Source: an uncultured Oscillospiraceae bacterium
GTDB lineage: Bacteria; Bacillota; Clostridia; Oscillospirales; Oscillospiraceae
Assembly: GCA_944385465.1 (NCBI GenBank)
Contig: CALWXH010000016.1
Span: 1-34,962 of the forward strand
Reading direction: 5' to 3'
Length of the DNA stretch: 34,962 nucleotides
The translations under genes and the position numbers were made by a program. A model generated the notes under the pieces. It saw only the letters and a list, made by a program, of their open reading frames with translations. It searched no databases and had not been told where the DNA came from. The number at the start of each line of letters is the position of its first letter. The first letter of the stretch is position 1. Shown piece after piece: positions 29,279 to 33,236 of this stretch.

Positions 29279-29560
29279 CAAAAAAGTCTTTGCCCTCCAT
29301 GGGACAAAGACTGCTGTCTCTGCGATACCACCCAAATTGACGTCGTGAGACGTCCGCTCGCTTACGCGTACCATCATACGCGCCCCGATGGATAACGGGT
29401 GGGATACCCGTCGGTCCCTACTTGGCCGTGCCGTTCGGTCCGCCCTCCGAAGTCCATTCACCGGCCGCGCCCCGCCCCGATTCCACCATCCGGGACTCTC
29501 TGAAGGTTTGCCGCACCGGCTACTTCTCTCCGTCACAGGTTTGAAGAATATTTCCTTGTT
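29279..29560 (-). ncRNA. T-box leader, tryptophan specifier
   Basis: The minus-strand leader shows the stem I loop-E half AAGTAGCC, the AGAGAG motif, and a specifier loop GTGAA-TGG-A with TGG (Trp) at 29456-29454. The T-box proper, GGGTGGTATCGCAG, is at 29333-29320. The terminator AGTCTTTG/CAAAGACT (29312-29285) ends in a T-run. In the closely similar Cys leader at 20.1 kb one extra base lies between GAA and the codon, so GGA (Gly) is a less likely alternative reading. TGG followed by a purine, the lower-stem pairing CGGAG/CTTCG and the TrpXYZ-type genes favour Trp. Confidence 0.9.
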
Positions 29561-29595: not shown

Positions 29596-29721
29596 CCCCT
29601 TGGGGATCAAAATTTTTCAGCGCGCTAAAGCAGTGGGGCAAAAATATTTTCCCTCCCGTGGGTTTTCTTTCCGGCCGGTGTATGATAAAGTGAAGGCAGA
29701 AGAGAGAGAGGAGGGGGCGCC

Positions 29722-30285
29722 ATGCACAACGACCGGGAAATCCGGGCCCTGATTGCCGCCATGGAGCGGGGCGAGCCGGACGCCCTGGAGCGGTTCCGGA
29801 CGCTCTACACCCCCCTGCTGCGCTACATCATCGCCCCCATCCTCTCCGATCCCCGGGACCGGGAGGAGTGCCTGGCCGATGCCATTCACCGGGCCTGGGA
29901 GAAGATCCACAGCTATGAGACCGCCCGGGGGAATTTCTCCACCTGGCTGTCCGCCATCGCCCGCAACGCCGCCCTGAACCGCCTGCGGGAGCTGGGCCGC
30001 CAGCCCCAGTGGGAGCCCCTGGAGGACCACGCCCACCATCTGGCCGACCCGTCGGAGGGGCCGGAACAGGTTCTGCTGCGCAACGAGCTGGCCGCCGCCC
30101 TGAACCGGGCCCTGTCCCAGCTGAGCCAGCGGGACCGGGACATCTTCCTGCGCAAGTATTACTATTATCAGTCCACCGCCCAGATCGCCGCCGAGCTGGG
30201 GCTCACCCTGCGGGGGGCGGAGGGGCGGCTGTACCGCATCCGGAAACGTCTGCAAAAAGACCTGGGAGGTGAGTGGCATGACTGA
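29722..30285 (+). CDS. ECF-type RNA polymerase sigma factor
   Basis: A 187-aa sigma-70 family factor with only regions 2 and 4. Region 2 spans about 20-92 (ALERFRTLYTPLLRYI; DAIHRAWEKIHSYE; NFSTWLSAIARNAALNRLR). Region 4 spans about 125-180 (LSQLSQRDRDIFLRKYYYYQ; TAQIAAELGLTLRGAEGRLY). The DRDIFLRKYYY...S..IA pattern belongs to a Clostridia ECF group that is usually followed by a large membrane protein. The ATG at 29722 follows GAGGAGGGGG. TATGAT at 29681 may be its -10, without a clear -35. Its stop overlaps the next start by 8 bp, so the membrane protein, a likely anti-sigma factor, is made in step with it. Confidence 0.94.
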   Translation: MHNDREIRALIAAMERGEPDALERFRTLYTPLLRYIIAPILSDPRDREECLADAIHRAWEKIHSYETARGNFSTWLSAIARNAALNRLRELGRQPQWEPLEDHAHHLADPSEGPEQVLLRNELAAALNRALSQLSQRDRDIFLRKYYYYQSTAQIAAELGLTLRGAEGRLYRIRKRLQKDLGGEWHD

Positions 30286-31714
30286 CCGGGACTTTGATCA
30301 GCTGCTCTATCAGCGTGTCTCCTATCTGCCGCCGGAGCCCATCTCCGGCCCCTGGCGCCGCGCCCTGGGCTGCATCTGCTGGGGGCTGATCCTCATCACC
30401 GTCACCCTGAGCGTCCTCTCGCTCCAGTATATCCTGCCCGCCGTGGGCAGCCTGCTGCTGTATCTGGGCTTCCGCCCCCTGCGCAAGGCCGGCCCCTGGC
30501 TGACCCTGGGCTATATCCTGTCCATCGTCCAGGCGCTGTATCAGGCCGCCGTCATCCTGCTGCTGGCCACCCCCGCGGGCCCTGTGCTCACCGCCCAGCC
30601 CCTCTCCTTCCGGCTGGGCCTGTTGGCCTACCTGCTGCGGACCCTGCTGGTATTCGCCCTGTGGCTGGGGCTGCGGGGCGTCTTCCGCCGGGCGGGGCAG
30701 CGGCCCAGAACGGCGGCCGCCGCCGGCGTGGCGGCGTGCTATGTGCTCATGCTCCTGCTGGCCCTGGGAGAGACCCAGGGCGCCCTGCCGCTGCTGGGCT
30801 TTCTCCTGCTGTTCCTGTGCGCCGTGGCCGGACTGTTTCACATCAGCGCCACCCTGGAACAGGCGGGCTACGCCATCCCCTTCGCCCCGGTGCGGGTGAG
30901 CACCTGGCTGGTGTCCCTGCTCTATCTGGGCATCCTGGCCGTGGCCGTCCCCCTGCTGCTGTTCCACTTCAACCACGTCCCCTTGGACGCCTCCCCCGCC
31001 CAGGCGGAGACCGGCCAGGCGCAGTTGCGGCAGGAGCTGGTGGAGCTGGGCTTCCCGGAAGAGGTGCTGGCCGACCTGACGGACAGTGAGGTGGCCGCCC
31101 TGGAGGGGGCGCAGGAAATCTACGCCGCCCGCTCCCCCCAGGAGGGGGAAGTCTCCTCCGACTTCAGGCCCTCTGTCACCTACTTCATCCAGGTGAATCT
31201 GCCCGGCGATCTGGCCCGCTATTACCTGTGGTTTTCCCAGAGCGATTTCCCGGAGCACGGGCTCCGGGAGAGCCTGGAGGTGGACCCCCTGACGGAGTTC
31301 TCCCAGACCCGCCCCGGCTGCGACCTTCAGGGCCGCCTGCTGTGGGAGGAGGGGGGCCAGCTGTACCAGTTCCCCCTGTCCACGCAGTTGAAATCCCCCT
31401 CCCTCACCGGTTCCGGGGGCTCCACCCCCTCCTGCTCCTATGTCGTGGACTTCTCCCTGCCCCGGCAGGGGGAACACGTCCGGGGCTATGTCTCCTATGA
31501 GGCCCAGCTCCTGGCCGACTATGCCGACTCCATCGAGGACATCCATGTCGCCATGGTCTACTTTCACCGCCCGGCCACCTGGCTGGACTACCCCTGGAAG
31601 TCCCCGGAGCAGTACCAGGCGGCGGGCCTGGCCCACGCCTCCACAAAGTACAGCTCCTATCAGAACATCGTCCGGTACTTCCACACGGACGGACTCTATT
31701 GGAACGGAGTCTGA
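30278..31714 (+). CDS. Polytopic putative anti-sigma/sensor protein, copy 1
   Basis: A 478-aa protein. A 26-residue cytoplasmic N-terminus (MTDRDFDQLLYQRVSYLPPE) precedes about seven helices (28-48, 50-66, 75-97, 110-133, 148-166, 170-188, 208-229). An extracellular region of 250 residues follows. It begins with ETGQAQLRQELVELGFP and ADLTDSEVAALEGA (244-278) and continues as a beta-rich domain (FSLPRQGEHVRGYVSYEA) ending near a YPW motif. I know no functional data for the family. Position directly after, and overlapping, an ECF sigma gene suggests that the N-terminus binds the sigma factor and the outer domain senses a signal. This role is inference. ATG at 30278 follows GGGAGGT. Confidence 0.8.
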   Translation: MTDRDFDQLLYQRVSYLPPEPISGPWRRALGCICWGLILITVTLSVLSLQYILPAVGSLLLYLGFRPLRKAGPWLTLGYILSIVQALYQAAVILLLATPAGPVLTAQPLSFRLGLLAYLLRTLLVFALWLGLRGVFRRAGQRPRTAAAAGVAACYVLMLLLALGETQGALPLLGFLLLFLCAVAGLFHISATLEQAGYAIPFAPVRVSTWLVSLLYLGILAVAVPLLLFHFNHVPLDASPAQAETGQAQLRQELVELGFPEEVLADLTDSEVAALEGAQEIYAARSPQEGEVSSDFRPSVTYFIQVNLPGDLARYYLWFSQSDFPEHGLRESLEVDPLTEFSQTRPGCDLQGRLLWEEGGQLYQFPLSTQLKSPSLTGSGGSTPSCSYVVDFSLPRQGEHVRGYVSYEAQLLADYADSIEDIHVAMVYFHRPATWLDYPWKSPEQYQAAGLAHASTKYSSYQNIVRYFHTDGLYWNGV

Positions 31715-31754
31715 ACGCGAGTCGTCCCATCTGTGAAAAGAGGAGGTTGCAATC

Positions 31755-33191
31755 ATGAACCCTGACCAGGAAATTAATCTTCCCAGCGCCGCCGTACAGC
31801 AGGGCGAGCCGGACGCCCTGGCGCAGCCCCAGACGCTCTGGCGCTATGCCCTGGCCCGGATCTGCTGGGGGCTGGTTCTCACCACCATTACGCTGAATTT
31901 TTTCTATCTCCAGTACCTGCTCCCCGCCGTGGGCTGCGTCCTGATCTACCTGGGGCTGCGCTCCCTCCGGAAGGCCAACCGGTGGCTGGGGGCGTGCCAT
32001 GGGCTGTCTGTCGCCCTGCTGGTGCTGCGGGCGGCCATCCTGCTGCTGGATGCCACCCCCGCGTGGTGGGCCCTCCCCGATTCCGCAGGCTTCTGGACAG
32101 GCGTGCTTGCCTTCCTGCTGGTCTTTCTGCTGCTCTTTGCCCTGTGGCGGGGTTTGAAGGAAATATTCCGCCAGGCCGGGCAGCCGCCGAAAACCGGTTC
32201 CGCCGGCGCCCTGGTGATCTGCTGGGTGCTGATCTTTCTGCTGGGCCTGATGGAGACCAGCATCTGGCTGGTCACCCTGCCCGTCCTCATCCTGTGGATC
32301 TGCCTGGTCGTGGGCGTGTTCAAGATCAATGGTGCGCTGGAGCAGGCGGGATACACCATCATCCCCGCCCCGGTGCGGGTGGTGGGCTGGCATCTGGGCC
32401 TGTTCTACCTCGTGGCCTTGGCGGCTGGGATCCTGATCTGCCTGCTCTGCTTCAGCCGCCGGCCGGTGGCTGCCGTCCCAGCCGCCCCCCAGACCGGCCA
32501 GACACAGCTGCGGCAGGAGCTGGCGGAGCTGGGCTTCCCGGCGGAACTGCTGGCCGATCTGCCCGATGAGGAGGTGGCACGGTTGGAAGGGGCCAGCGGC
32601 GTGGAGCAGAAGGATATTTGGGGTTGGAACACTGCCGATCACTTGGAGGGGCTGGACTGTCAGGTCTTCCAGGTGACCCTCCCCGGGGAAAACACCCTGC
32701 GGTTCTACTATTTCTTCCAGTGGCGTACCCCTCCGGAACAACGCTATCGCTATCTGGACGGGGTGGAGCTCATCCCCGCCCACAGCTTCAACAGCCTGTC
32801 CATGGAGGTGGAATCCCCCCGTGGCAGCCTGCTCTGGGAGGAGGACGGCCAGACGCTGGAGATGGAGCTGACTGCCACAGCTCCCCAGGTCTATCACGAC
32901 ACCTGGTCGCTGGGGACCCTTACCTCCGTCTCCTCCTATTCCTATTGCGATATGGTCTTCTCCCTTCCGAAGGAGGGGGAAAACCTCCGGGGCTATGTGA
33001 CCTGGGGCGTCTCCAATCTCCGGGAGGAGAACTTCGTCACCTCTTGCATCACCTACATCCACCAGCTCTCCCCCCTCTCCTATCCCTGGGCGGATCCCTG
33101 TCAGGCCCAGCGGCTGGGACGGGCCGCTGACGAGCAGGATCCCTTCTGCAGCCTGGGCGTCTGGTGTGACGCTCACTACACAGAGCAATGA
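31755..33191 (+). CDS. Polytopic putative sensor protein, copy 2, with sigma-derived N-terminus
   Basis: A 478-aa paralogue of the preceding protein with the same layout. Seven helices begin at RYALARICWGLVLTTITLNF. The conserved block TGQTQLRQELAELGFPAELL and ADLPDEEVARLEGA (247-280) follows, then a beta-rich outer domain (FSLPKEGENLRGYVTWG) and a YPW motif. Its first 29 residues do not match copy 1. Instead they align without gaps to residues 1-29 of the ECF sigma factor (shared GEPDAL, TL and others), and the DNA shares a 20-base identical block. The two outer domains have diverged much more than the membrane part, as if they sense different signals. ATG follows AGGAGGTTGCAATC, 40 bases after copy 1. 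Confidence 0.82.
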   Translation: MNPDQEINLPSAAVQQGEPDALAQPQTLWRYALARICWGLVLTTITLNFFYLQYLLPAVGCVLIYLGLRSLRKANRWLGACHGLSVALLVLRAAILLLDATPAWWALPDSAGFWTGVLAFLLVFLLLFALWRGLKEIFRQAGQPPKTGSAGALVICWVLIFLLGLMETSIWLVTLPVLILWICLVVGVFKINGALEQAGYTIIPAPVRVVGWHLGLFYLVALAAGILICLLCFSRRPVAAVPAAPQTGQTQLRQELAELGFPAELLADLPDEEVARLEGASGVEQKDIWGWNTADHLEGLDCQVFQVTLPGENTLRFYYFFQWRTPPEQRYRYLDGVELIPAHSFNSLSMEVESPRGSLLWEEDGQTLEMELTATAPQVYHDTWSLGTLTSVSSYSYCDMVFSLPKEGENLRGYVTWGVSNLREENFVTSCITYIHQLSPLSYPWADPCQAQRLGRAADEQDPFCSLGVWCDAHYTEQ

Positions 33192-33196
33192 CCCAC

Positions 33197-33236
33197 CCCG
33201 GAGGGGGAGCTGTGGCTCCCCCTCCGGGATTTTTTT
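33197..33236 (+). terminator. Terminator of the ECF sigma operon
   Basis: CCCGGAGGGGGAGC (33197-33210), TGTG, GCTCCCCCTCCGGG (33215-33228), A, then seven T's. A textbook intrinsic terminator. Confidence 0.96.

Follow-up and report, generated by a model that had tools for sequence, protein, structure and literature searches.

Chimaeric genes at a sigma-factor locus are known from Staphylococcus aureus, where tandem duplications with short junctions create them at sigH (PMC3486894; here and below, as far as the excerpt of that report goes). These chimaeras arise at low frequency, are easily lost again, and were found by a selection screen (PMC3486894). Class I anti-sigma factors have domains of 101 ± 33 residues, about 65% of them contain at least one membrane helix, and they are often encoded beside the sigma gene (PMC7406223, likewise in excerpt). 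Among the titles and abstract beginnings of the literature matches listed, none dealt with a sigma start fused to a membrane partner.

The window analysed here, a stretch of 34,962 nucleotides from an uncultured Oscillospiraceae bacterium, contains an operon-like row of an ECF sigma gene, two membrane-protein genes (m1 and m2), and a terminator-like hairpin:

29658 to 29687, plus strand: promoter-like element GTGGG...TATGATA upstream of the sigma gene, by pattern match
29709 to 29714, plus strand: AGGAGG ribosome-binding site of the sigma gene, read from the sequence
29722 to 30285, plus strand: ECF sigma factor gene, 187 aa (TIGR02937, Sigma70_r2, r4_2)
29722 to 29808, plus strand: source stretch, sigma codons 1 to 29, by alignment and genome search
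30278 to 31714, plus strand: m1, membrane protein copy 1, 478 aa, with the family tail as residues 1 to 24
30284 to 30325, plus strand: m1 tail helix, residues 3 to 16 (DRDFDQLLYQRVSY), predicted with modest confidence (block pLDDT 70 and 53)
31741 to 31746, plus strand: AGGAGG ribosome-binding site of m2, read from the sequence
31755 to 33191, plus strand: m2, chimaeric copy 2 of the membrane protein, 478 aa
31755 to 31838, plus strand: sigma-derived start of m2, codons 1 to 28, by alignment, genome search and profiles
31833 to 32450, plus strand: m2 residues 27 to 232, seven predicted membrane helices
32472 to 33188, plus strand: m2 residues 240 to 478, beta-rich domain, placed outside the membrane from loop charges
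33197 to 33228, plus strand: strong terminator-like hairpin after m2

We regard it as likely that m2 is a chimaera of the sigma start and a paralogue of m1, in which the family tail, itself a likely sigma-holding segment, was replaced by the start of the sigma gene. Like the sigH chimaeras, it would combine tandem duplication, an in-frame fusion, and a borrowed ribosome-binding site and start codon (PMC3486894). The difference is that in Staphylococcus aureus the sigma body was kept and gained a foreign start (PMC3486894), whereas in m2 the sigma start was donated. Judged by the excerpt, the sigH chimaeras are the nearest precedent found for a chimaera at a sigma locus (PMC3486894) but, unlike them, the m2 fusion has been kept long enough to diverge. 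It shows clearly, in a natural genome, how the start of a regulator can pass to the membrane protein that partners it, with source and copy about 2 kb apart. The nearest functional likeness of m1 would be to the class I and class II anti-sigma factors such as CnrY, because m1 is a membrane protein encoded behind a sigma gene and has a short cytoplasmic N-terminus (PMC7406223, in excerpt). However, only 24 residues precede the first membrane helix of m1, against the domain length given above for class I (PMC7406223), m1 has a large outer domain besides its seven membrane helices, and m2 has no such tail at all. The m1 tail is much shorter than a class I anti-sigma domain, and its sigma binding is putative. 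Membership in the anti-sigma factors is not claimed because no anti-sigma family reaches its cut-off.

The product of 29722-30285 has the sigma-2 and sigma-4 regions of an ECF sigma factor, with all matches above the cut-offs (TIGR02937 E 4.9e-25, PF04542 E 1.8e-13, PF08281 E 1e-10). The first 8 bases of m1 lie within the 3' end of the sigma gene, the start codon of m2 lies 40 bases past m1 behind its own AGGAGG, and the hairpin is likely the end of the sigma-m1-m2 operon. A genome-wide search with the promoter pattern found the sigma gene's own site as the sole match, and the regulon can therefore not be named. The assembly (2.12 Mb in 108 contigs, 96.9% complete) shows no further member of the m1/m2 family; the chimaera is known from this one assembly. 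Both proteins share the seven-helix body and the beta-rich C-terminal part that define this family, and the charges between the helices agree with a tail in the cytoplasm and a beta-rich domain on the outer side. Neither m1 nor m2 matches any Pfam or NCBIfam family at the cut-off (weak matches only, best E 0.14), a Pfam search of 22 family members gave only four weak matches in one member each, and a profile search of PDB sequences gave two matches with E 0.06 and 0.99. Structural candidates were rejected as well. Among the best 50 of 1100 Foldseek matches of the m2 model, the 27 PDB matches with E <=0.001 to staphylococcal leukocidins and similar pore-formers superimpose with TM 0.13-0.26 and rmsd 13-21 A, and adhesins and others in the later rows reach a target-normalised TM of up to 0.44 and share no fold.

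The sequence-only reading had aligned codons 1-29 of m2 without gaps to codons 1-29 of the sigma gene. This alignment is confirmed with 60 of 87 bases identical, and its coordinates, reading frames, and counts are exact (43 identities over the last 54 bases, an identical run of 20 bases). At the protein level 14 of the 29 residues agree, a number of in-register identities that was reached by 0 of 200000 residue shuffles of m2. The pairwise nucleotide alignment that had been suggested as a check scores 59 (+2/-3), above all shuffles and all random window pairs: 500 codon shuffles of sigma scored at most 32, and 1421 random pairs of real stretches from the window at most 44. When the window was compared with itself, the two starts formed the eighth of 90 matches, with the m1/m2 body and six further repeats ranking above them. 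Across the genome, the m2 start has a single strong non-self match, the sigma start (E 8.9e-9, next non-self match E 0.004, searched with 107 bases including those upstream of the start codon), which matches at the same codon numbers. The identities are unevenly distributed, with 17/33 bases in codons 1-11, of which codons 4-7 contribute 10/12 and codons 8-11 only 2/12, and with 42/51 bases in codons 12-28. It is very improbable that the resemblance arose by chance or convergence, or that it is an artefact of assembly. The GC-rich codon usage does lift the background, as the score of 44 in other window pairs illustrates, and a single genome carries the fusion, but the rank and E-value in the whole genome, the in-register start, and the shuffles all speak against these explanations, and the likeness continues with differences past both sides of the exact 20-base block, unlike a mis-join at a repeat.

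The direction of the transfer was read from two profiles, one built from the sigma starts of 17 relatives with the window's sigma left out, the other from the membrane-protein starts of 22 relatives. The first gives 43.9 bits for the window's sigma and 14.9 bits for m2, the second 36.9 bits for m1 and 0.4 bits for m2. The likeness is therefore inherited and runs from sigma to m2; the start of m2 is of sigma origin. The N-terminus of m1 had been called unrelated to sigma, in agreement with the -1.0 bits of its tail on the sigma-start profile, and the statement that m2 matches m1 from Trp29 on is borne out by 44% amino acid identity over the aligned part. One end of m2 thus corresponds to one gene and the rest, in frame, to another.

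Relatives in named records were found by an alignment-based contig search, while a search with m2 alone found none. Relatives are present at E 0.001 in 20 of the 41 other genomes of the genus, and a draw of 400 genomes of the bacterial family contained 41 with a relative at E 1e-30, the window's own included; 12 weaker matches of this draw were given no locus and stand outside the survey of starts. The survey of tails comprises 52 loci and excludes L102 and L107 (which repeat L026 and L019), L023 (the second piece of the gene in genome G015), and the named-record loci L080-L100, which are mostly the same contigs as surveyed loci, although at least L091, L093, L095, L096, L097, and L100 differ. 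A sigma-like start was seen in none of the 21 relatives in named records, one of which is cut by a contig end, and by eye in none of the 51 survey loci with a printed tail, L022 being without a tail in the open frame. Homologues of m2 with the same N-terminus and no ECF sigma gene nearby, which the sequence-only reading had named as a refutation, were accordingly not found among the relatives examined. The G468 protein seemed at first to share the m2 start, as it aligned to m2 from residue 3, but it carries a normal family tail and follows a sigma gene of its own. Relatives with a visible start, for example in Candidatus Enterenecus stercoripullorum and Pseudoflavonifractor sp. An85 (both Oscillospiraceae), begin with a tail of the form 'FDxLL...LPP...PW' or with an eroded version, and in most of them an ECF sigma gene lies immediately upstream; this arrangement is usual, not universal, in the m1/m2 family. 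On the tail profile m1 scores 34.0 bits and m2, which lacks this motif, -0.5 bits. The conserved columns of the body are kept to a similar extent in m2 (72/88) and m1 (70/88), those of the tail in 1/6 and 5/6 cases, respectively. Hence m2 has lost the family tail, while its frame is intact and its body residues are retained. Its body places m2 with the relatives of m1, but their visible starts are the family tail or its eroded form, and the sigma start was seen in m2 alone. The membrane-gene locus occupies the same chromosomal place in G041, G020, G019, and G005, and in the first three ABC transporter genes on the other strand are followed by the sigma gene, the membrane gene, and two more genes.

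In the m1/m2 family as a whole, the tail tends to accompany the sigma gene. The median tail-profile score is 44.5 at 45 loci beside a sigma gene or its broken pieces and 18.1 at the 6 scored loci without sigma gene, with a one-sided p of 0.0004, or of 0.0009 if each assumed loss lineage contributes a single value, and these p-values are rough because the loci are related. The locus classes were revised after the first count by moving L043 and L029 to the sigma-bearing side; with both left on the sigma-less side the one-sided p is 0.00015. In these two loci the sigma gene appears to be broken into two frames, either by decay or by an assembly error, and the adjoining tail is partly to fairly intact. 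L022 could not be scored (no tail in the open frame), and L006 has little upstream sequence, so that the absence of its sigma gene was taken from the genome search. The spreads of the two classes overlap, with 35.5 in the sigma-less G015 and 5.9 at one sigma-bearing locus. Genomes G005 (L054), G017 (L053), and G015 (L055) have no sigma gene ahead of the membrane gene and a promoter-like element directly before it, and none of the three contains a close copy of the sigma gene elsewhere (best other matches 29%, 26%, and 35% identity); the contig of G017 starts about 230 bases upstream of the membrane gene. The ECF sigma gene is thus gone in two lineages of the genus, in which promoter-like element and membrane gene were kept and joined. 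Between G017 and G005 the membrane gene has a dN/dS of 0.20 and is under purifying selection in both sigma-less genomes. Their tails have a dN/dS of 2.94 on 27 codons. This contrast was dropped as strong evidence and has weak weight, since the tail-rate ratio of 1.91 ranks second in a control of 16 pairs, in which one sigma-bearing pair reaches 2.11. The tail tends to erode where sigma was lost and the membrane gene kept. Both the tail scores and the persistence of the body without sigma fit a tail that binds sigma and a body that is used for something else. The tail thus seems linked to the sigma gene, and the body to serve a purpose that outlasts it. Together with the losses of sigma in sister lineages, m2 opens an evolutionary approach to this receptor-like family, which is uncharacterised.

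It is most likely that the cytoplasmic FDxLL...LPP...PW tail keeps the sigma factor encoded beside it at the membrane in the fashion of an anti-sigma factor. In m2, whose codons 1-28, probably together with the ribosome-binding region, come from the neighbouring ECF sigma gene, and which from Trp29 on is an m1 paralogue with seven membrane helices and a beta-rich outer domain, the tail has been exchanged for sigma's own start. If the family tail binds sigma, m2 would no longer do so. The sigma piece would act as translation start and flexible linker and not as a working part of a sigma factor, and m2, a receptor paralogue presumably cut loose from sigma, might sense a signal uncoupled from sigma, serve as a sink for ligand, or tune m1 as its partner. 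That the sigma fragment could still bind something, as had been suggested, is weakened by its changes: in 16 codons it differs from its source, 15 of these change the amino acid, all five Arg are gone, and Pro was gained at positions 10 and 25 (L10P, F25P). We therefore consider it improbable that the sigma-derived tail is a functional mimic of sigma that binds the m1 tail or RNA polymerase and tunes the release of sigma. GEPDAL and TL are retained, the piece is the start of the sigma-2 domain, and it was kept in frame, but besides the lost Arg and the two Pro the hydrophobic L10, I11, and F25 have disappeared, and the m2 tail is predicted to be disordered (residues 1-23 mostly with pLDDT < 50), whereas residues 3-16 of m1 are predicted helical. 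Equally doubtful is an operon with two receptors, in which m1 would hold sigma and the sigma piece of m2 would be a decoy or competitor setting the threshold of release. No positive charge precedes residue 30 of m2. Of the five Arg codons in the sigma start, four went from CGG to CAG and the fifth to AAT (31755-31841). At position 26, m2 has a Gln like 15 of the 17 relatives, where the window's sigma has Arg. In this one point the fragment looks older than the present sigma gene, which could be a coincidence given that CGG became CAG in four of the five cases.

Concerning the age of the chimaera, the 43 identities between fragment and window sigma over the last 54 bases compare with 33 between the window sigma and each of the G041 and G020 sigma genes, and with 26 and 27 between the fragment and these two. 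Therefore, the copying of the sigma start probably postdates the split from G041 and G020, the nearest sigma-bearing relatives. By the upstream transporter genes G015 is the nearest fetched genome, while G041 and G020 are slightly closer for the two downstream genes; the G015 locus has one frameshifted membrane gene and no sigma gene. In a tree without the tail columns, m1 groups with G015 (86/94), and m2 finds no firm place among long branches. The best tree has m2 weakly outside m1 and G015 and does not join m1 and m2, yet a clade of both is only 3.8 log units worse and is not rejected (AU p 0.36). An earlier tree, which included the tail columns and more distant rows, had placed m2 with G019, G017, and G005 (90/94), but this support falls to 51/40 once the tail columns are dropped.

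Two histories of the one chimaera share the odds. The one put forward in the sequence-only reading, a tandem duplication of the sigma-membrane pair followed by an in-frame deletion from codon 29 of the second sigma gene to just before Trp29, has about an even chance. Its starting points, the sigma-derived N-terminus and the body of an m1 paralogue, stand, and two ordinary steps would account for the start and its ribosome-binding region as well as for the gene order sigma-m1-m2. Judged by the excerpt on sigH (PMC3486894), the order of parts in m2 would need both duplication and deletion, unlike the chimaeras there, which took one duplication. The share of changed synonymous sites between sigma and fragment over codons 1-28 (0.30) is near that in two m1/m2 blocks (22.1/64.9, 0.34, and 13.5/30.2, 0.45), the clade of m1 and m2 is not rejected, and the pair can probably double, since G024 (L024) contains a second sigma gene followed by the beginning of another membrane gene, which the contig end truncates. 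Against this history, no intact sigma2-m2 pair or other tandem pair was seen as an intermediate in the 41 other genomes of the genus, the best tree keeps m1 and m2 apart, and codons 12-28 appear younger than the body. The start signals were said to have been kept, which may hold for the ribosome-binding region but not for the promoter, which is not copied: upstream of the two starts the likeness fades at about -20. With a chance somewhat below even, the membrane gene was duplicated alone, or m2 is a more ancient copy, with the sigma start captured later by short-homology recombination or template switching. In favour of such a capture, over codons 12-28 only 0.5/13.7 synonymous sites (0.04) have changed, far fewer than in the m1/m2 blocks, and the weak position of m2 outside m1 and G015 would agree with it. 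However, codons 12-28 were picked after the data were seen, and homology at the junction is by eye not clear beyond a few bases.

On the minus strand and divergent from the sigma operon lies a T-box leader (29297-29545, RF00230, 97.9 bits) whose promoter at 29595-29567 (minus) is a perfect TTGACA-17-TATAAT, and it precedes minus-strand genes that resemble the substrate-binding protein, permease, and ATPase of a transporter. These transporter genes hold the same place beside the locus in relatives. In G015, about 4.8 kb of other sequence (L055:8370-13190) separate the promoter-like element of the membrane gene from the transporter side of the locus.
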